From: Fibrobacter sp.
GTDB taxonomy: Bacteria > Fibrobacterota > Fibrobacteria > Fibrobacterales > Fibrobacteraceae
Assembly (NCBI GenBank): GCA_024399065.1
Contig: JAKSIB010000003.1
Coordinates: 62,001 to 126,000, forward strand
Reading direction: 5' to 3'
Length of the DNA stretch: 64,000 bases
Shown: piece after piece, positions 17,851-29,762 of the stretch
Layout of the letters: the number at the start of each line of letters is the position of its first letter
Position numbering within the stretch: the first letter of the stretch is position 1
Made by a program: the position numbers and the translations under genes
The notes under the pieces: generated by a model
Databases searched by the model: none
What the model saw: only the letters and a program-made list of their open reading frames with translations
Told to the model about the DNA's origin: nothing

Positions 17851-19791
17851 ATGCCAGAGACTCCGAAATCAGCCTACTTTAGAGAAATGTACCCTTACTC
17901 CTTGGAGGCGTTTAGGAGTGTTCTTGGCTTGAACATGGATTCCGCCAAGGAGGTGGTTTCGGCTCTTAAACGTTCCGGTGTTGCTAAGGCCGTTAATAGA
18001 AAAACCTTTGATCTGGATCGACTTACTGAAGAAAGCGAAGTCATTTCCGAAGATATTGCTGAAAATTCTGATATCGCCTATGTAATGAATTATGTGGGTG
18101 TGGTCTATACAGAAAATTGTGTTCTGAAATGCTACCCCAAGTATATTGATAATTTTCCCGACGATCCGAAGGATGAATCTGGGTTAGTAAAAGAATTAAG
18201 GTCTGTCCTTAAGGCAATCCAGAAACATAATGACAAGGTTCAGTCCATCCATTTGTATAATGGCGAGGAACGTAGCACCTTCAATATGCTTGGCTTGGTT
18301 CTCCATATTCTCCATGACTATTACGAGAATGGAATCTACACCAACTATCAGGAAGTTATAGAGACTAATGGTGAAGGCGAGATTGATTGGGATAGGACCA
18401 TCAACGAAACTTTTGCGTACCTCAAGGATAATCGTCCGTATTATCTAGAGCTGAAGACGATTGCGAATCAAACAGATGACTTTGACTACTTCAAGCGACT
18501 CCATGAATGCATTGTTACGGAATGTTCCAAGTATCTTGAAGATCTTGGCTTGACGGAATTGTTTGATGATGTTCCGTTTGTTCAGTTGACTGAAACGAAC
18601 CTTGATGATTTTGGAGACCCCGACTACATCAAGTATCGTCTGGAACGAGAAATTGCTTCGCAGTTTGTGACCCGCAAGCAAATGCTTCTCAAGACCCTCT
18701 ACACCTATGTGGCCGAAAAGAAAACGGACGAGCAGGAAGATTCCTTCAGTCTCTGGGGAACGAATTCCCTGAACCTCGTCTGGGAACATGCTTGTGGGGA
18801 AGTGTTTAAGAACGAATACGAGTCCTTTAAAAAGTATATCGATTGCCCTGAATGGAAATTTGAAGATAATGAAGATCCAATTTCCAAGGAAACATTGATT
18901 CCCGATATTGTTTGCAAGGCTTCAGATAATACATTTTGTATTCTTGATGGAAAATACTATTTGCCTAAATGGACAAAGAGTGCTCTTTCAAATAATCCCG
19001 GTGTACAGGATGTTGTAAAGCAGTTTGTTTATCACAAGGCGTTTCTTGAGTATTTGATTAAGAATGGAATTCAAAATGTGTTTAACGCATTTTTATTCCC
19101 GGCACCATCATCAAAGAAAACAACTGATTTTATCAAGGCTTTTGGAACGGTGGATATGAAACCCCTTATGGAATGGGGGTTGAATCGTTTGCCGTCCGTT
19201 CACTTGGCTTATGTAAATCCGGATGAGTTGTGGAAAGCCTACGTAGGTGGAAAAAATCGTAAGGCTGAATTAGAACTTTGTGTGGCTGAAATTCAGAAGT
19301 CTCCGGACTATAGCTATGACGCTATAATTCCTAGTTTGTTGCAGGTTGCTGAAGTTAGGGTGGATTATTCTGCGCAGCAATTAACCATGGTCGGTTATTT
19401 GAAACCTGATTATGTGGAATTTTTGCATCGCGGCTGTTCTAAAATGATATTCTATTTCTACCATACAAGAAACGGATTTGTGTATCCGGTACATCCGCAT
19501 TTGATCAATTGCAAAGCTTTTGCTGGCTACACAGATGGGGAAGGCGTTATTGTTGGCAACATTGTTGGGAAGTTGCAAATTTGCAATGCAAGTGCTCTTG
19601 CTGAAAAGCTTGCTGGATGCGGCATAGAAAAGAGTGATTTTTCTGCGCAGTCTTATTATGTGATTGAAATTGAAGATGTAAGAACTGTTGCCGGAAGAAA
19701 TAAATCCTATTACCAAGACGCCATAAATGCATATCCGGGTAATGACATTACCCATGAATATTCACCGAAAGTGGTGAATGATATAAAGTAA
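17851..19791 (+). CDS. LlaJI family restriction endonuclease, stand-alone
   Basis: The 646-residue protein matches the RE_LlaJI family (PF09563). The likely active site is Asp352 (LIPDIVCK) and Asp366-Gly-Lys368 (CILDGKYYLPKW), a PD-(D/E)XK pattern. The N-terminus MYPYSLEAFRSVLGL parallels the LlaJI-like gene at 14.1 kb. Unlike that gene it has no McrB partner or methyltransferase beside it; the upstream neighbour is the AlbA_2 regulator, 9 bases away. It may borrow the ATPase of the preceding module, act alone, or be an orphan left from a larger system. The ATG at 17851 fits the family start. Downstream is intergenic DNA ending in convergent sequence. Confidence 0.85.
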   Translation: MPETPKSAYFREMYPYSLEAFRSVLGLNMDSAKEVVSALKRSGVAKAVNRKTFDLDRLTEESEVISEDIAENSDIAYVMNYVGVVYTENCVLKCYPKYIDNFPDDPKDESGLVKELRSVLKAIQKHNDKVQSIHLYNGEERSTFNMLGLVLHILHDYYENGIYTNYQEVIETNGEGEIDWDRTINETFAYLKDNRPYYLELKTIANQTDDFDYFKRLHECIVTECSKYLEDLGLTELFDDVPFVQLTETNLDDFGDPDYIKYRLEREIASQFVTRKQMLLKTLYTYVAEKKTDEQEDSFSLWGTNSLNLVWEHACGEVFKNEYESFKKYIDCPEWKFEDNEDPISKETLIPDIVCKASDNTFCILDGKYYLPKWTKSALSNNPGVQDVVKQFVYHKAFLEYLIKNGIQNVFNAFLFPAPSSKKTTDFIKAFGTVDMKPLMEWGLNRLPSVHLAYVNPDELWKAYVGGKNRKAELELCVAEIQKSPDYSYDAIIPSLLQVAEVRVDYSAQQLTMVGYLKPDYVEFLHRGCSKMIFYFYHTRNGFVYPVHPHLINCKAFAGYTDGEGVIVGNIVGKLQICNASALAEKLAGCGIEKSDFSAQSYYVIEIEDVRTVAGRNKSYYQDAINAYPGNDITHEYSPKVVNDIK

Positions 19792-20672: not shown

Positions 20673-20948
20673 TTACAGATTCTCTGGGAAGGCGAAGAAT
20701 GTGCTAGGGGCGCATCCGAATATTTCTCCCAATTTTACGGCCATTTTCCTGGATACCGGACGTTTTCCGCGTTCCATTTCAGAAACGTTTTGCACGGCGA
20801 CATTCAGTTTTTCGGCAAGCTGGGCTTGTGTCCAATTGCATAGGCCTCTTGCTGCAACAATCATTTCTCCGGGAGTGGATTTTTGGCATGTATTTTTATG
20901 CAGGGCAGTTTCTTCAAATGGGACAAACTCAAAATATCCGCCGGACAT
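20673..20948 (-). CDS. XRE-family helix-turn-helix protein, antitoxin-like
   Basis: A 91-residue protein with a Cro/C1-type helix-turn-helix between about residues 28 and 82: GLCNWTQAQLAEKLNV, then VQNVSEMERGKRPVSRKMAVKLGEIF. The N-terminal 25 residues are a short extension. It is the last gene of a leftward operon, 10 bases after the GNAT gene, with a strong ribosome site (AAAGGAGG). Small XRE proteins next to GNAT genes usually regulate the operon or act as antitoxin; here it probably represses its own promoter upstream of 21733. The role is inferred from context. Confidence 0.85.
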   Translation of the reverse strand: MSGGYFEFVPFEETALHKNTCQKSTPGEMIVAARGLCNWTQAQLAEKLNVAVQNVSEMERGKRPVSRKMAVKLGEIFGCAPSTFFAFPENL

Positions 20949-22086: not shown

Positions 22087-22701
22087 ATGCCCAGAGAGAA
22101 CTCGGCTTTGAAAAAGTCTGACGACAAGTTGTTCGTCAATGATTTAGGAACCATCGTTTCCACCGCTCGCGACATGAGTTTCCGTGCGGCGAACCTTATG
22201 CAGGTGGCGTGCAACTGGCTTGTCGGCTGGCGTATCGTGGAACAGGAACAGCATGGAAAAGCCCGTGCGGGTTATGGCAAGCATGTAATTCAGTTGGCGT
22301 CGGAGTCGCTGACCGAAAAATTCGGGAAGGGGTTTTCTGTTCCCTCGTTGAAAGGTTTCCGAAAATTCTATTTGATTTTTAAGAATGCTCGAATGTCCCA
22401 TGCTCTGCCAGTTTCGTTCGTTAATTCGCTGTCTGAAAAAGGGCAGGCATTGCCTGCCCTTTTGAAAAACAATGAAATTGGGCAGGCTTTGCCTATCCAA
22501 TTGTCCTGGAGTCATTACGAATGCCTGATCCGTGTCGCCGATGAAAAGGCCCGCCTGTGGTATATGCAGGAGGCTGCCGCCGAGCAGTGGGATTACCGCA
22601 CTTTGAAACGAAATATCGCCTCGCAGTATTATTATCGTTTGGTGCAGACTCCAGAGGGCAAAAGATCTGCAGTCGACAAAGCCAACGGCCAACGATCGTG
22701 A
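22087..22701 (+). CDS. DUF1016 N-terminal domain protein, nuclease domain missing
   Basis: The 204 residues correspond to the DUF1016_N domain (PF17761) of YhcG-family proteins: ANLMQVACNWLVGWRIVEQEQ, GKHVIQLASESLTEKFGKGF, LKGFRKFY and LSWSHYECLIRVAD with WDYRTLKRNIASQYY. The C-terminal PD-(D/E)XK nuclease half that normally follows is absent; the frame ends after QTPEGKRS and a strong terminator comes 7 bases later. Two 27-base palindromes sit in frame inside it and give repeated GQALP peptides. It is driven by leader copy 2. It may be a decayed nuclease gene or a functional DNA-binding remnant. The complete paralogue is at 23192. Confidence 0.8.
   Translation: MPRENSALKKSDDKLFVNDLGTIVSTARDMSFRAANLMQVACNWLVGWRIVEQEQHGKARAGYGKHVIQLASESLTEKFGKGFSVPSLKGFRKFYLIFKNARMSHALPVSFVNSLSEKGQALPALLKNNEIGQALPIQLSWSHYECLIRVADEKARLWYMQEAAAEQWDYRTLKRNIASQYYYRLVQTPEGKRSAVDKANGQRS
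22437..22502 (+). repeat. Two in-frame 27-base palindromes inside the DUF1016 fragment
   Basis: First: AAAAGGGCAGGC (22437-22448), loop ATT, GCCTGCCCTTTT (22452-22463), perfect 12-base arms. Second: AATTGGGCAGGC (22476-22487), loop TTT, GCCTATCCAATT (22491-22502), two mismatches. Both are 27 bases, so each adds nine codons without a shift. They lie just before the conserved LSWSHY block. Confidence 0.85.
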
Positions 22702-22707
22702 CCCCTT

Positions 22708-22733
22708 GGGGCGGAGACTCATCCGCCCTTTTT
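22708..22733 (+). terminator. Rho-independent terminator after the DUF1016 fragment
   Basis: GGGCGGA (22709-22715) pairs with TCCGCCC (22722-22728) around a 6-base loop, followed by TTTTT (22729-22733). Confidence 0.85.
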
Positions 22734-22843
22734 GCATTACTGGTATGCGGTAGGCGGGGAGGCTCCGTTTTATGAGGGCTATGTAATAACCCCATAAAAT
22801 AGAGCGTGACGGCGCTTTCTGCGCCGGGCCGCCCGAAGAAAGT

Positions 22844-22875
22844 TTTTGACACTTTACTGTCAAAATCTTTAATTA
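22844..22875 (+). promoter_or_regulatory. Promoter with overlapping inverted repeat (possible operator)
   Basis: TTTTGACA (22844-22851) and TGTCAAAA (22858-22865) form a perfect 8-base inverted repeat with a 6-base spacer. Its left arm contains a consensus -35 (TTGACA, 22846-22851); TAATTA at 22870-22875 could be the -10 with 18 bases between. A repressor bound there would block the promoter. Confidence 0.5.
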
Positions 22876-23141
22876 TATTTATTCCATGATTCATCACTCC
22901 TTGCGACAGTCGACATAGACTTGCAAAAGTCCGTACGTGCATTCGCGGCAAGGTTCATTAACCATCTGGTTGATGTTGTTGGATAGCTGGCAGGAGACGC
23001 AGCCTGCTCAAGAGCGTGAGATCGCCGAAATGTGCATCGCGCCAGGTAACGCCGAGGAAGACCCTCGCCAACAATGTGGCTAGAACCTCCAATCTCTACG
23101 CAATGTAGGGAACATCTTTATAATCAAAAAGAATGCTATCG

Positions 23142-23168
23142 ACCATTTTCCCGGCGTGGGGAAATGGT
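23142..23168 (+). promoter_or_regulatory. Hairpin in the 5' region of the DUF1016 gene
   Basis: ACCATTTTCCC (23142-23152) pairs with GGGAAATGGT (23159-23168) with one bulged base and a short loop, 23 bases before the ATG at 23192. It may affect translation or message stability. Confidence 0.4.
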
Positions 23169-23191
23169 GGTTTAAACGTACGGAGAATATT

Positions 23192-24229
23192 ATGACAAAA
23201 AAGATTGTTTTGCAGGTAGAATCTGAATATGGTGAAATTCTGCAACAGGCTGTTGCAGTAATTAAACAGGCTCGTGTAAATGTTGCACGTCAACTAAATG
23301 TTGGTGAAAATGCTGCTTACTGGGAAATTGGGAAAATGCTACATGAGCGCAAGCTCGATAGTAAGCATGGAAATTCCGTTGTTCGCCGCCTTTCTGTAGA
23401 TTTAAAGGTACATTTTCCGGATATGGGGGTGTCTCCAAGACAACTCTGGAACATGAAAAAATATTATGTACGATATTGTAACTCCGCTGAAAAAGTGCTA
23501 CGGAGCGTAGCACTTTTGACATGGGGGCAAAATCTTTTTCTTTTAAGCCAAAATTTTGACGACAATCAAATCCTTTTCTATGCAAATGAGTGCGTTGCCA
23601 AGGGATGGACGCGTGATTTGCTGATAAACGCCGTGAAAATGCAAATGTATGAACGTGCTGCTCTTAACCGCCCTCAAAACAACTTCAAGGACACGTTGCC
23701 CGAAGGTCAGGCGGAATTTGCGAACGAAGCATTTCGCAGCACTTATAACTTGGGTTTCCTTGGAATTACAGAGCCGGTAATGGAGTTGGAACTGGAACGA
23801 AAACTTGTTGAAAAGGTTAGACAGTTCCTTTTGGAACTTGGAAAGGGCTTTGCCTTTATTGGAAATCAGCATGAGCTGGAATTCAACGGGAAAGCAAGCA
23901 GGGTAGATATGCTTTTCTTCCATAGGCAACTGAGATGTTTGGTGGCAATTGATTTGAAAGTGGGTGAATTTAAGCCGGAATATGTAGGCAAGATGAACTA
24001 TTATCTTTCGTTGCTTGACCGTTTGGAGCGCGGGGAGGGCGAAAATCGTTCGGTCGGTATTATTCTTTGTGCAACAAAAGATAATGTTGAAGTTGAACTT
24101 TCGCTTGATGGTGTTGGCAAGCCTATTGGAGTTGCTGATTATCAATTACTGTTGCCCAAGGAAGAACTGCAGAAAGTTCTGGCTGACGAAATCAAGTCTT
24201 TCAAAGAAGTTAAACATTTAACGCATTAA
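23192..24229 (+). CDS. DUF1016 / YhcG-family PD-(D/E)XK nuclease
   Basis: A complete YhcG-like protein. The N-terminal DUF1016_N region (about residues 10-160) includes AAYWEIGKMLHERKLDSKHG, LSVDLKVHFPDMGVSPRQLWNMKKYY and LLINAVKMQMYER. The C-terminal half (PF06250) carries the nuclease centre: FAFIGNQHELEFNG, RVDMLFFHR with the Asp, and LVAIDLKVGEF with the D-x-K. ATG at 23192 is chosen because GGAG (23182-23185) lies before it; the frame extends to a GTG at 23156 without support. A 27-base palindrome lies in frame in the N-terminal domain. Border repeat copy 3 follows after 27 bases. The family is linked to defence and DNA processing. Confidence 0.9.
   Translation: MTKKIVLQVESEYGEILQQAVAVIKQARVNVARQLNVGENAAYWEIGKMLHERKLDSKHGNSVVRRLSVDLKVHFPDMGVSPRQLWNMKKYYVRYCNSAEKVLRSVALLTWGQNLFLLSQNFDDNQILFYANECVAKGWTRDLLINAVKMQMYERAALNRPQNNFKDTLPEGQAEFANEAFRSTYNLGFLGITEPVMELELERKLVEKVRQFLLELGKGFAFIGNQHELEFNGKASRVDMLFFHRQLRCLVAIDLKVGEFKPEYVGKMNYYLSLLDRLERGEGENRSVGIILCATKDNVEVELSLDGVGKPIGVADYQLLLPKEELQKVLADEIKSFKEVKHLTH
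23491..23517 (+). repeat. In-frame 27-base palindrome inside the DUF1016 nuclease gene
   Basis: AAAAGTGCTACG (23491-23502), loop GAG, CGTAGCACTTTT (23506-23517): perfect 12-base arms, same 12-3-12 layout and the same protein position as the palindromes at 22437-22502, but a different arm sequence. Confidence 0.88.
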
Positions 24230-24334: not shown

Positions 24335-24363
24335 TTGACATCTTATAATTATTGGTGTATATT
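24335..24363 (+). promoter_or_regulatory. Consensus sigma-70-type promoter of the RhuM gene
   Basis: TTGACA (24335-24340), 17 bases, TATATT (24358-24363). The RhuM ATG is 51 bases further on. It is the best promoter match in the island. Confidence 0.7.
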
Positions 24364-24413
24364 TGTGCAGTAAACATCCGTGGTTATACGCTTGTCTACG
24401 GAAAGGAGAAATG

Positions 24414-25342
24414 ATGGCTAATAGTATTCAAAAACAGTTGCAGTTCCTTATGTACAGCACCCCTGACGAAGATGTCAAGGTGAACGCCTTGGTGAAGGAT
24501 GAAACTATTTGGCTTACGCAAAAGGCCATGGGGGAACTGTTCAATGTTAATGTTCCGGCAATTTCAAAGCATTTGAAAAACATCTTTGACGAAGGTGAAC
24601 TTCAGGAAAATTCAGTTATTTCCATTTTGGAAACAACTGCCGCGGATGGGAAAAACTATAATACCAAATTCTACAATCTCGATGCCATCATTTCTGTAGG
24701 TTATCGCATCAGTTCCGCCCGGGCAACGCAGTTCCGTATTTGGGCGACGGGTGTTCTCAAGGAATACATCCGCAAGGGCTTTGTGCTGGATGATGAACGC
24801 CTGAAGCAGGGTGAAAACGCTTTTGGCGCAGACTATTTCCGTGAATTGCTGGAACGAGTGCGTTCGATCCGAGCAAGCGAACGTAGGATTTGGCAGCAGA
24901 TTACTGATATTTTTGCTGAATGCAGCTTTGACTACAATAAGGATTCCGAGCTGCTAACGCCGATGCATCCAAGGAACTCATGGGGCTCTTGACATGGAAA
25001 AACTCACCTGATGGTCGCGTGTTGAAAAGCGATGTCGCTATAGCCAAGAACTATCTGACCGAAAAGGAAATCAGAAGGCTGGAGCGTCTTGTGAGCGGCT
25101 TCTTTGACTATGTGGAAGACCTGATTGAAAGAGAAATCCCGTTTACCATGCAACAGTTTGCCGGTGCCGTTAATGAATTCCTGGAGTTCCGCAAGTACCA
25201 GGTTCTCGAAGGTGAGGGAAAAATTTCTCACGAGCAGGCGGAACACAAGGCCTTTGCTGAATATGATGTTTTCAACAAGACGCAAAAGATTGAATCTGAC
25301 TTTGACAAACTCGTGAAAAAAACGAATAAAAGACTGCGATAA
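24414..25342 (+). pseudogene. RhuM-family gene broken by an internal out-of-frame deletion
   Basis: Virulence_RhuM family (PF13310). Part one, from ATG 24414 (AAGGAG at 24403-24408), reads the typical N-terminus: VKDETIWLTQKAMGELF, VISILETTAADGKNYNTKFYNLDAIISVGYRISS, RIWATGVLKEYI, DYNKDSE. It then leaves the frame and stops at 24992. The second part continues in another frame from about 24959 with NADASKELMGLLTWKN, SDVAIAKNYLTEKEI and SDFDKLVKKTNKRLR to 25342. Compared with the family, roughly 35 codons between DKDSE and the ADASK block are missing. The stop codon is contributed by border repeat copy 4. Confidence 0.85.
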
Positions 25343-25502: not shown

Positions 25503-28500
25503 ATGAAAAGGGATTGGATTGCGGCGGTTATCGCTGTTTTGATATTGTGCGTAAGTGCGCATGCCGCAACGTTGACGATTGAAGCTTCGTCGGGCGGAAC
25601 TGTAGAAGAAACATCGAAGGTGGTGTCTGCAGGCGATGCGGCGAATGTTACGGCTGAGGCGGGTTTCGGCTATAATTTTGATAGCTGGACGGTTTCCAAA
25701 AATCCTGGCAACTGCAAAATCTCAAACGATTATTCTGCCTCCACAACAGTGATTGTCAATGGCAATTGTACTGTAACGGCGAATTTCTCGTTGATTCCTT
25801 ACGTTACCCCGGTTTCTGCCGAAAATGCCGTTGAATACAATCTCCGTCCTGATCAATCCCTGATTGCGCTTGCTGATGAGTCCGCAGACGGTTCAAATGT
25901 AATCCGTTTTTCCACCAATACGCCTAGCGAAGGGTGGTACTGCCTTGAGTTCGGCATGTCTTCCGTCAACTCCTTGTATCTATCGGATTTTGGTGCGGAC
26001 GATCAATATCTGGATGTGAACAACAGCAAATCCTTTGTGGAATATCATCTGCCGGAAAATCTTAGGAAACGCTGCTTCCAGGGAGATGGTCTGCATTACT
26101 GGTCTGTATCCGGCGTGAAGGCCAATGTTTATCAATACGTGACAATCCGATTGGTGCAAACGGAAACGACTACGATAACAATAAGAGATAGCTTTAGTTA
26201 TTACAACCCAGGTTTAGTACTTTTATTTAATGGGGATACGCTTCAATGGAAGACGTATCCAGTCTTGGATGTTCCCAAAGGTGTTCCTTTGCCAATAGAA
26301 TCCTTTACGTCGCCTTATTATAATTATCCTGAATGGTCGCTTTCGCAGGGCGACGCCTGCAGTATTTCTCCACCAAGTATATATTTTATTTTTTCTCCTG
26401 TAATATATTTTCAAGGTTCTTGTGGATTGAGTGGTAAGTTTGGTTTTTCTAGTAATAAAGATCGATATGCAATAACAAATGTGGTTGTTGAACCTGCAAG
26501 TGAAGATACTGTTTGTGTGAAATTTGATTTGAGTTATAATCAAGGGGGATACATGCCATGGGCGGTTTACGAGGCTTTTAAACTTGATGTTTATTCTAGG
26601 GAGTCCTCCGATTTGCTGCCGTATTTTTATGTGGAAAATAATCCGGAAGATGCTGTGAGCACGGTCCTTGTTGTTGATGAGGGCGATGATGGATGGGTCG
26701 GTTTTCGATCCATCAACTTGATCAATACCTTTATCAATGGCATGCTTGATGGGGATAAGGTTGCCATAGTTGGTTATAGGGGCGATGGCTCGGCCGTGTT
26801 GCATCAGTCCTTGACCTCCGACAAGATGGCTCTTTATAATATGACCTATAGATTGATGACTGTTGGAACGTCCAGTGACTTGGGCATGGGTGTTGACTTA
26901 GGTCTGAAACAATTGATGGATGTTCCTGGACGCAAATCCATGATTGTGTTTACGTCTGGAAATGCTGACTTGAAATTTTCGTCTAGAAATGACGTTGTAA
27001 GTAGGGCGAAGGCCATGGATGTTTCTATAAGTGTTGTGGCTAAAAAATTGGGAAGTGCCGATGCGTTGAAATCCTTGGCTGATGATACGGATGGAACGTA
27101 TACATTATTTGATATTGAAAGTTTTAATAGCGGATCATTGTATGGGAGATTTTTTTCGCTGGCTACAGAGGCCTTCGACAGGGCCCGTTTTTTCAAAAGA
27201 TTAACGGAAAAGGCTTGTATGGTTGCTGATGATGGCGTAATGAACGGAGGTAATTACAGGATAAATGTTCGTCAAGAAGGTGATTATATGAAAGATCCGG
27301 TTACCGGATATTTTCATTTGATGGATTGGACAGAGCCTCTTTGGCGTGAGCCTGATGCAAAAGATACCGTAAAGCTTTATGATGCTCGGGAAGTTGGCGA
27401 TATTACTCGTGCTACGGATTCCCTGCTGATCCAGGTCAATACCCAGAATTTTTCCGATGATTCCATTAGGCCTATTGTGGAAATACCGGTTTTGTTGACT
27501 TGCCTAAATTCTCGCGATCATGAAACGGCTACGGTGTCCCATGTGCAAGACGGATTGTACCAGGTTGTGGGTTTCCCCAAACGCGAAGGCTTTGCCAAAA
27601 TGGACAATGGAATTCTGGAATGTTTCAGCGAGGATTCCATTGTTGCAGATTTCAAGGATCCGATTTACGAGACTGTTGCCAGCGATACCGTATACTTTGC
27701 AGATAAAGATGCCTATGTTGACCCTGTTATCGTTGAACATGATGGCGGCCTGCCTAATGGTGCTTCGATTCTCACTTACAGCGACGGCACAAAGTTTGAA
27801 ATTCTGATACACGGTTATAGCGAATCTCTGTACGAAGTGGATACGTTGATGGTGCTTGCCTATACGGACCAGGGGGATTCCCTTTGGATGAAGGCTATCG
27901 AAACTGGGGCCTATACTTCGGAATTCAAACTGACAGGTGAATTTGTCGTGGTGAACGATTCTGCGAAAATGCGTTCCGACCACTTGGAAGGCTTGCTGGG
28001 CAAGGGGGCTGATGGTGGTCAGTGGCGAGTGAATCTGGAATTGCATTCGCTTGGCATGACGGGATATCCCTTGGGTGGATTTACTGTAGAATCCAGGTAT
28101 GAACCTGCGGTGCTTACGGTCATCAATGCCGATGGAAAGGACAAGCCCATTTTGCGCACCACGGAAAAATTGCAGTTGGACCTGACTGCAAGTGAATACG
28201 CAGAAGCCGGTGACAAGGTAGTTTCCGTTCGTTGCCTTAATTCGGGGGATGCGGAACAGCTGCTCTTGACGAAAACGGAGACTTTGGTGAAGGATGAACA
28301 TAAGCCTGTCTCTGGTGATGGTGTTCTATCCTGTGCGGCCGAAGACGAAATCGTGGTGGAGTACGTGGACCCGCTCTACGAAAAGTCTGTGGTGTGGTCC
28401 CGCGGTTTCAAGGATGAAGTTGAAACATCTTATGCGTTCACGAATGAATCGGCGGCAGATTCTCTGGATGGTTACGATGCCGATTTTACTCTTTCCTTTA

Positions 28501-29762
28501 CGGCGGTGAGCCCGTCCCTTTACGAAGTCGATACGGTAAAGGTTCTGTTGTTTACGGATCGCGGGGATTCCCTGTGGGTGGATGCTGTGGAAACCGGTGC
28601 CTATACTTCTGAATTCGTGGCTCAGGGTTCCTTTAACTTTGTGGTGGATTCTTCCAGCGCCCGTGACGATGCCCTGGACTGCGTCATGGATCTTGACCAG
28701 GATCGTAACCGCGTTGTGATTCGTGCCCAGTTCGGTAACGATAGCTTGGCTATGGATGAAAGGGATTCGCTGGTTGTTTCCGTCAGCTATATACCGGCGG
28801 ACTTTGCAGAGATTTATGACAAGGATCAGGATGGCCGCGCCGACTTTGTCCGCGTACATTTTGCGAAGTCCATCAGCCGCGAAAACATTTTCATTGATTC
28901 TGTTTTCTGGAACGGATCCAGGGACAGTTGGCGTGTCGTGCGCCATGGCAGCGAAAACGCTGTAGGTGACCGTTGGATCGAAGCCGCTTTGGATGAACCG
29001 TTTGATTATGGCATGACAGAGGCCATGTCGGGATCGAAGAACTCGCAGGCCTATGTGCGCATTTCGAGACTGTCTTCTTCTACAAAGCAGAAGGTTCCGC
29101 TGCGCGATTCCGTAGGTGCCGTTCCTGTGGCTGCGATAAAGCACCCGGGCGTTATGGATGCGGAATCCTACATGGAGGGTGGCATCAAGAAACCTCAGGA
29201 TACGTTGTATGTGTCCTTGTCGGAACCATTGAAGTTGCCGCTGGATTCCTTGGATTGGAAGAATCTTTTCGCCTTGTCTGAAAAGTGTTCCGACAAGAAT
29301 TCGGAAGTACTGCGCCTTGATGGCAAGCCCAGTGTGGACAAGTCTGGAAGGGAATGGAAGCTGGTGCTTTCTCGTGAAAGGATTGTAAAGGTGGGCGGCT
29401 GCCTGAGATTGAACCCGATGATTGGAGGCGTGAAAATCAGTGGCGACGATGGTGATGCCTACCTGTACGAAATTGCTGCAGACCCCGCCGTCGCTACGTT
29501 GCAAACAGGTTCCGCTGTCAGGACCAAGGCAAGGCTCGGCTACACGGCGAACGTGACCATCTTCGATAACATCGGCAATGTGGTAACGTTCTTCAAGTAT
29601 AAAAGTTCCGCCATGGACGACAGGATTCCCTGGGACCTTCGCACGGATGACGGCGTACTTGTTGGCTCCGGTGTGTACATCTGGAAAATCCGCTTCCGCT
29701 TTACCGACGGCCACAAGGAAACCCGAATCGTAAGAACCGGCGTTAATCGCAGAAATAACTGA
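25503..29762 (+). CDS. Large exported VWA-like protein with bacterial-repeat and FlgD-like tail
   Basis: A 1419-residue exported protein. Residues 1-21 are a signal peptide ending in AHA. Residues 22-98 resemble an InlB-type bacterial repeat (EASSGGTVEET, FGYNFDSWTV, VNGNCTVTANFSL). From about 385 to 560 a von Willebrand A-like domain is readable (TVLVVDEGDDGW, INTFINGMLDGDKVAIVGY, KSMIVFTSG), although the usual DxSxS metal site is not present. Two similar modules follow, each with EVDT--VL--TD-GDSLW and ETGAYTSEF. The last 75 residues (VTIFDNIGNVV, GVYIWKIRF, IVRTGVN) look like a FlgD-Ig/sorting tail used by Fibrobacteres and Bacteroidetes surface proteins. ATG follows GAGGAG. Role on the cell surface is unknown. 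Confidence 0.82.
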   Translation: MKRDWIAAVIAVLILCVSAHAATLTIEASSGGTVEETSKVVSAGDAANVTAEAGFGYNFDSWTVSKNPGNCKISNDYSASTTVIVNGNCTVTANFSLIPYVTPVSAENAVEYNLRPDQSLIALADESADGSNVIRFSTNTPSEGWYCLEFGMSSVNSLYLSDFGADDQYLDVNNSKSFVEYHLPENLRKRCFQGDGLHYWSVSGVKANVYQYVTIRLVQTETTTITIRDSFSYYNPGLVLLFNGDTLQWKTYPVLDVPKGVPLPIESFTSPYYNYPEWSLSQGDACSISPPSIYFIFSPVIYFQGSCGLSGKFGFSSNKDRYAITNVVVEPASEDTVCVKFDLSYNQGGYMPWAVYEAFKLDVYSRESSDLLPYFYVENNPEDAVSTVLVVDEGDDGWVGFRSINLINTFINGMLDGDKVAIVGYRGDGSAVLHQSLTSDKMALYNMTYRLMTVGTSSDLGMGVDLGLKQLMDVPGRKSMIVFTSGNADLKFSSRNDVVSRAKAMDVSISVVAKKLGSADALKSLADDTDGTYTLFDIESFNSGSLYGRFFSLATEAFDRARFFKRLTEKACMVADDGVMNGGNYRINVRQEGDYMKDPVTGYFHLMDWTEPLWREPDAKDTVKLYDAREVGDITRATDSLLIQVNTQNFSDDSIRPIVEIPVLLTCLNSRDHETATVSHVQDGLYQVVGFPKREGFAKMDNGILECFSEDSIVADFKDPIYETVASDTVYFADKDAYVDPVIVEHDGGLPNGASILTYSDGTKFEILIHGYSESLYEVDTLMVLAYTDQGDSLWMKAIETGAYTSEFKLTGEFVVVNDSAKMRSDHLEGLLGKGADGGQWRVNLELHSLGMTGYPLGGFTVESRYEPAVLTVINADGKDKPILRTTEKLQLDLTASEYAEAGDKVVSVRCLNSGDAEQLLLTKTETLVKDEHKPVSGDGVLSCAAEDEIVVEYVDPLYEKSVVWSRGFKDEVETSYAFTNESAADSLDGYDADFTLSFTAVSPSLYEVDTVKVLLFTDRGDSLWVDAVETGAYTSEFVAQGSFNFVVDSSSARDDALDCVMDLDQDRNRVVIRAQFGNDSLAMDERDSLVVSVSYIPADFAEIYDKDQDGRADFVRVHFAKSISRENIFIDSVFWNGSRDSWRVVRHGSENAVGDRWIEAALDEPFDYGMTEAMSGSKNSQAYVRISRLSSSTKQKVPLRDSVGAVPVAAIKHPGVMDAESYMEGGIKKPQDTLYVSLSEPLKLPLDSLDWKNLFALSEKCSDKNSEVLRLDGKPSVDKSGREWKLVLSRERIVKVGGCLRLNPMIGGVKISGDDGDAYLYEIAADPAVATLQTGSAVRTKARLGYTANVTIFDNIGNVVTFFKYKSSAMDDRIPWDLRTDDGVLVGSGVYIWKIRFRFTDGHKETRIVRTGVNRRNN

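Follow-up and report, generated by a model that had tools for sequence, protein, structure and literature searches.

Repressor-binding sites can be located within genes, as with lac O2 and gal OI, and the phage immunity repressors, with their stoperators, illustrate the co-evolution of repressor and operator. Homing endonuclease genes, carried by mobile DNA, encode sequence-specific nucleases and split their own targets. Palindromes also occur in frame within protein-coding genes: the Rickettsia palindromic elements (Ogata et al., cited in PMC4316617) are about 100-150 nt long and found in many unrelated places. In ParB and Noc, the recognition helix alpha4 together with alpha6 and alpha8 touches the palindromic site, with R173 contacting G1 of parS and R201 reading C6 (PMC7383237). 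One such site, parS-359 of Bacillus subtilis, sits within the parB gene itself and is a single-gene precedent for the arrangement described below (PMC4442127). The DUF1016/YhcG family is large and widespread, includes a member in Escherichia coli K-12 and is considered a candidate defence system, with no assigned function. In the open-licence PMC text searched, no paper on such palindromes was found for DUF1016, YhcG or PDC-S02, nor was a family-wide, hypervariable target co-evolving with a nuclease gene found there.

The window (the whole 64-kb stretch analysed, part of a 3.8-Mb Fibrobacter genome) contains two members of this family: both pass the PF17761 cut-off, and gene 2 passes that of PF06250 too (Table 1). 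In the nuclease domain, D239 and K256 are invariant across the alignment, and gene 2 has the D254-L-K256 motif. The two genes carry four palindromes, and the axis of all four (4/4) falls on codon position 1, in keeping with the claim of an earlier note, based on the sequence alone, that the palindromes are in frame. Palindromes 1a and 2b are the only perfect inverted repeats in the window (arms of at least 10 nt, loops of up to 8 nt), and two sites have at least 12 of 13 pairs, where Markov-simulated windows contain 0.07 on average, so that the palindromes are real. The earlier note described three palindromes of a 12-3-12 layout; 1a and 2b are perfect, but 1b is imperfect, and 2a was overlooked. 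The latter lies early in gene 2, within the N-terminal helix EILQQAVAVIK, at a position homologous to the sites of loci L306 and L114. Palindrome 1b starts 39 nt downstream of 1a and shares with it 12 of the 14 variable positions of both arms, whereas 2b occupies the canonical place, preceding L-T-W-G-Q-N. Of the two genes, only gene 1 has extra units; the proposed insertion does not fit gene 2, where the palindrome coincides with one of the regular helices of the domain, at residues 100-107 of the structure model, and the length is unchanged.

Table 1. The two DUF1016 genes of the window, their palindromes and the predicted DNA-reading and nuclease segments of gene 2
Feature	Position in the window	Strand	Description	Basis or detail
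Gene 1	22087..22701	+	204 aa, DUF1016_N alone, without nuclease domain	Pfam PF17761, E 8.8e-34
Gene 2	23192..24229	+	345 aa, DUF1016_N and YhcG_C PD-(D/E)XK nuclease	PF17761, E 7.6e-32; PF06250, E 4.5e-55
Palindrome 1a (gene 1)	22437..22463	no strand	AAAAGGGCAGGCATTGCCTGCCCTTTT	13/13 pairs, perfect 13-1-13
Palindrome 1b (gene 1)	22476..22502	no strand	AATTGGGCAGGCTTTGCCTATCCAATT	10/13 pairs, imperfect copy of 1a
Palindrome 2a (gene 2)	23236..23262	no strand	AATTCTGCAACAGGCTGTTGCAGTAAT	11/13 pairs; N7 CTGCAAC, fully paired
Palindrome 2b (gene 2)	23491..23517	no strand	AAAAGTGCTACGGAGCGTAGCACTTTT	12-3-12, perfect; 12/13 pairs when read as 13-1-13; N7 GTGCTAC
Predicted recognition helix (gene 2, residues 82-95)	23435..23476	+		R83/W86/N87 co-vary with N7 bases 7/8/6
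Helix 111-119 (gene 2)	23522..23548	+		residues 112/115 co-vary with N7 bases 3/4
Helix 141-149 (gene 2)	23612..23638	+		R141 co-varies with N7 base 3
PD-(D/E)XK nuclease domain (gene 2)	23726..24172	+		Pfam YhcG_C; alignment; fold match EndoMS/NucS, Z 11.6

As to the surroundings, an LlaJI/McrC-type restriction protein is encoded upstream (17851-19791), and the stretch resembles a defence island. Downstream of gene 2, a RhuM-family gene (24363-25342) is apparently split into the overlapping ORFs 24363-24992 and 24980-25342, possibly by a frameshift, and a very large ORF (1419 aa, 25503-29762) with an apparent signal peptide adjoins the island.

The family-wide set of DUF1016_N genes came from the phylum of the window, genomes sampled from the phyla of a Pseudomonas and a Bacteroidia genome, viral contigs, E. 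coli, and plasmids of Actinomycetota, Chlamydiota, Deinococcota and Fusobacteriota; the sampling is non-random and favours high-scoring hits. The 352 hits include 285 distinct genes, of which 195 remained after clustering at 85%. In these 195 non-redundant genes, from several phyla, phages and plasmids, the palindrome is within the ORF, usually directly 5' of the LSWSHY block, so that its placement at the same point in both window genes, reported in the earlier note, recurs across the family. Over the 48 codons that surround the site, 67% of the genes have 11 or more of the 13 pairs and 90% have 10 or more, compared with 0.57% and 4.4% in codon-shuffled versions of the same proteins, a null that rules out chance or codon bias as the source of the palindrome, and with 1.7-3.2% and 3.9-4.9% in control stretches of the same genes. 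The axis lies on codon position 1 in every one of the 130 genes that reach 11 pairs or more, regardless of the length of nearby inserts. The finding thus survived the DNA-level comparison across many genomes suggested in the earlier note, which asked whether most members lack palindromes and whether inserts depart from multiples of three. At the threshold used, the site is absent from 23 of the 285 genes (about 8%), which counts against the explanation favoured below; it is present in each of the 15 genes that encode DUF1016_N without the nuclease domain. Some genomes (G083, G111, G123) have 9-22 DUF1016_N matches, at times in tandem, and the neighbours carry different palindrome words. In two plasmid loci, from Deinococcus and Cetobacterium (L328 and L332), the DUF1016 gene is located between genes for a DNA methyltransferase and a restriction specificity subunit.

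The repeated unit can be written as AATT-N7-CA-S-TG-N7'-AATT. Pairing ends sharply past 13 bp per arm (at position 14, 0.33 observed vs 0.31 expected), so that the unit is 27 bp long. The seven-base word N7 is hypervariable, with 127 words among 200 sites, and is paired in 83-99% of the genes vs the 29-46% expected from base composition. Compensatory changes keep it palindromic: for example, two close homologs that encode IVVSLIRQL and ILVSLIREL, with AATTGTCGTATCA and AATTCTCGTATCA, respectively, differ in both arms, and the amino acids differ on both sides. In the observed phase, the unit translates as I-x-x-x-L-x-x-(Q/E)-L. This peptide is an amphipathic helix, which accounts for the constancy of the phase as well as for the variation that is tolerated.

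Co-variation between protein residues and N7 bases was analysed in 226 full-length proteins (effective number 132; residue numbers are those of gene 2), with only alignment columns outside the palindrome-coding segment tested. The strongest residue-base pairs include 112-3, 83-7, 141-3, 115-4, 86-8 and 87-6. In a scan of 111 non-overlapping sister pairs (2135 column-by-base tests, Bonferroni limit 2.3e-5), these rank 1, 2, 11, 6, 3 and 4, respectively, and all pass the limit; the six best tests involve residues 112, 83, 86, 87, 112 and 115, with p from 3e-15 to 3e-7. The preferences make chemical sense: Arg83 goes with G7 (weighted counts 59 to 0.5) and Lys83 with C7; Glu86 with C8 (12/12) and Trp, Tyr or Phe86 with T8 (32/32); Tyr87 with C6, Arg115 with C4, and Arg or Lys141 with C3. 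When predicted from residues 112 and 141, using training proteins less than 35-50% identical, base 3 is correct in 83-93% of the cases; for bases 8 and 9, prediction from residue 86 does no better than the majority base. Gene 2 follows the code (R83-G7, W86-T8, L115-A4, G112/R141-C3); gene 1 agrees with it at residue 86 and deviates at 83 (Pro with G7) and 112 (Ser with G3). Part of the co-variation could stem from a linked block being exchanged as a whole, although most neighbouring residues of the block do not co-vary. The palindromes do have to do with recognition, as initially surmised. The further suggestion that the encoded peptide changes the recognition surface is probably incorrect, given that the co-varying residues 112, 83, 86, 87, 115 and 141 are outside the palindrome, on neighbouring helices.

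The model of the N-terminal domain (pLDDT 94.5) places the co-varying residues on the three helices listed in Table 1. In a structural comparison, the best 13 matches of this model are all DNA-binding domains of ParB, Noc, Spo0J and SopB (Z from 8.8 to 5.3, with the next match at 4.9). A Foldseek search with the N-terminal domain alone gives no match at E of 0.001 or lower; in view of these weak E-values, the ParB-like match is remote, and the predicted fold of DUF1016_N is best described as distantly ParB/Noc-like. By spacing, residues 83, 112 and 115 would correspond to ParB residues 173, 201 and 204. No solved structure was matched by sequence. DUF1016_N and YhcG_C are the only Pfam domains in the two window proteins; in the models, residues 2-52 form a single long helix that would leave no space for a ParB-type N-terminal CTP-binding domain, and no ParA is found among the neighbours annotated in the loci examined.

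Because N7 co-varies with residues that it does not encode, and these belong to a domain with a predicted ParB/Noc-like fold, the most likely reader of the palindrome is the protein encoded by the same gene; binding by that product appears very probable on these computational grounds. Around the genes, second dyads that match a gene's own N7 in at least 12 of 14 positions number 56, against 4.7 for the N7 of other genes, and at 13 or more positions 25 against 0.7. The second copies are in frame at non-homologous places (e.g., -108, +183 and -255 nt) or form tandem units at 36, 39 and 54 nt. The words of sites in one gene are identical in 5.2 of 7 bases, compared with 2.6 of 7 for sites in different genes, and gene pairs sharing one locus have different words. 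Some copies are outside the ORF: in Paenarthrobacter pAO1, a site is located 35 nt 5' of the ATG, and in another locus (L071) a site with a related word precedes the ATG by 115 nt.

We favour, with moderate confidence, the reading that each DUF1016 gene holds the palindromic site of its own protein in frame, most likely as an intragenic operator. Under this scenario, the ParB/Noc-like N-terminal domain, probably a dimer, would read the seven variable bases of each half-site through residues 83, 86 and 87 of the recognition helix and residues 112, 115 and 141 of the two neighbouring helices. With the axis at the first codon base, the site would encode an amphipathic helix (I-x-x-x-L-x-x-x-L), so that the protein would tolerate almost any N7. 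The bound site would serve as an operator through which the protein restrains transcription of its own gene wherever the mobile gene lands, and neighbouring paralogs with other words would not cross-react. The recognition helix and its target are within about 80 nt, so that a single recombination event could replace both, and such a joint replacement would shift specificity without loss of self-recognition. For autoregulation as the use of the site, we would put the chances at about even. It is favoured because the nuclease-less genes carry sites, because some genes have upstream copies, and because a mobile gene with such a site takes its control along; what counts against it is that the majority of the sites are intragenic, at some 300 nt past the start, with cognate upstream non-coding sites in only a handful of genes.

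The main rival to autoregulation keeps the same protein and the same site and lets the site direct the PD-(D/E)XK nuclease. The nuclease would cut or be loaded there, and the purpose would be self-directed breaks, homing, the exclusion of related elements or addiction, in the last case with the nuclease kept occupied by the gene's own DNA. We regard this reading, the addiction variant included, as rather unlikely, although it draws on the fusion of the site-reading domain to a nuclease domain with conserved motif residues, on the status of DUF1016 as the candidate anti-phage defence family PDC-S02 (PADLOC), and on rearrangements in E. coli that end at palindromes (Nissle, the K-12 gltF-yhcG block, O157). 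In K-12, yhcG contains three in-gene sites, with one more after gltD and one past its own stop codon, such that the gltF-yhcG block has a site at either end. In O157, an in-frame deletion of 78 nt removes two units. The Nissle strain is without yhcG and retains, between gltD and nanQ, one site identical to an in-gene one; since the gene is present at this locus in Pseudocitrobacter, where all sites are inside it, the Nissle allele is probably a deletion, and its interpretation as an empty insertion site is disfavoured. This weakens the nuclease reading, as do the readiness of palindromes to rearrange even without a nuclease, the excess of sites in the filled allele over the empty one, the reverse of what is seen with homing endonucleases, and the sites in genes that have no nuclease domain (15/15).

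In the yhcG allele of some E. coli strains, nucleotides 238-330 diverge by 34% compared with 3-4% for the remainder, and the recognition helix and the palindromes form one divergent block. Here, the helix GFSAKNLRQMR is replaced by GFSTRNLWQFK and the first site CGCCAGA by GTGCAGA, i.e., K83/R86 with the former word is exchanged for R83/W86 with the latter, in agreement with the code at both residues; two strains with the GTGCAGA-type allele show a compensatory pair difference in the second site. Accordingly worded predictions are possible for E. coli: the N-terminal domain of K-12 YhcG is predicted to prefer AATTCGCCAGACAGTGTCTGGCGAATT, and that of the L216-type allele AATTGTGCAGACACTGTCTGCACAATT. 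In E. coli B and others (L220 4001-4802, L221), yhcG stops inside the third palindrome, and a small transposase-annotated gene replaces the rest.

A broader possibility, tentative and not one that we consider likely, is that DUF1016 genes are self-targeting elements in which a private, diversifying DNA word in the gene itself directs or restrains the nuclease. If so, each gene would distinguish its own DNA, or DNA lacking the word, from that of rivals, and specificity would evolve by swaps of helix-plus-target cassettes.

It is very unlikely that another DNA-binding protein, of the host or co-mobile, reads the palindrome while DUF1016 co-varies by linkage only. Helix-turn-helix proteins do sometimes adjoin (20673-20948 in the window; L327 and L330), but no neighbouring gene is constant among the annotated loci, and the co-variation is specific to chemically sensible residue-base pairs on ParB-like helices, with most residues of the block not involved.

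Even less probable are mobile or selfish in-frame palindromes akin to those of Rickettsia; mobility had been suggested in the earlier note. Several copies per gene and tandem units of 36, 39 and 54 nt could be taken that way; however, the 27-bp size is fixed, N7 is unrelated between genes, and the palindrome usually replaces a normal helix instead of adding length. Dispersal over unrelated genes is not observed either: a search of 12 whole genomes with one such word (0-2 mismatches) found none outside DUF1016 genes or their fragments, and a pattern search of the window's own genome with its two sites yielded nothing but the neighbour at 39 nt and a small number of weak matches with 2-3 mismatches, about as many as a control pattern. 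Two intergenic copies in one of the genomes (G158) resembled att sites or regulatory targets but belong to decayed pieces of DUF1016 genes on either side of a two-gene insertion. In a Bacteroidia genome (L334 3243-5219), an insertion of two genes, whose ORFs of 297 and 142 aa look, by eye, DUF91-like and GIY-YIG-like, is bordered by two fragments of decayed DUF1016 genes in direct orientation.

The least probable reading, again one raised at the outset, is an mRNA hairpin that would serve to control translation or to process RNA: the inverted repeats within the mRNA are strong, but an RNA stem should tolerate GU only, whereas GU (62) and AC (64) mismatches are equally frequent, the central spacer is often 1 nt and copies occur outside the ORF as well. 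The strand symmetry of the mismatches points to a palindrome that acts as double-stranded DNA.

These observations assign a predicted DNA ligand to DUF1016/YhcG and predict its residue-by-base recognition code; in E. coli, they also point out a natural switch of specificity. As every gene comes with its own target, genomes directly supply a very large number of matched protein and target sequences, a kind of data seldom available for learning how proteins recognise DNA. The coding sequence is dual-purpose throughout the family, with a single phase, a single helix and a single DNA site.

Compared with the systems outlined above, DUF1016 shares with the Rickettsia palindromic elements the in-frame position within protein genes but is unlike them in that the palindrome is limited to one gene family. 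Similarly to homing endonuclease genes, it places a sequence-specific nuclease gene on mobile DNA; however, the target is intact and multiplied inside the gene, which, together with the probable deletion in the gene-less E. coli allele, sets it apart from that class. As with intragenic operators and phage immunity repressors, the sites are inside genes and reader and site change together, but in DUF1016 it is the ORF of the presumed reader itself that contains the site, always in one codon phase and family-wide. In DNA reading, DUF1016 would resemble ParB/Noc with parS/NBS: a palindrome read by a dimer, as proposed here for DUF1016, via a recognition helix and two further helices, with specificity residues that apparently occupy equivalent positions, Arg-G and Arg-C(G) contacts among them (PMC7383237), and, in the one case of parS-359, a site within the protein's own gene (PMC4442127). 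Unlike those of ParB/Noc, the DUF1016 sites are 27 bp long, vary from gene to gene and are embedded in about 90% of the genes of the family, and a fused PD-(D/E)XK nuclease takes the place of the CTPase domain of ParB.
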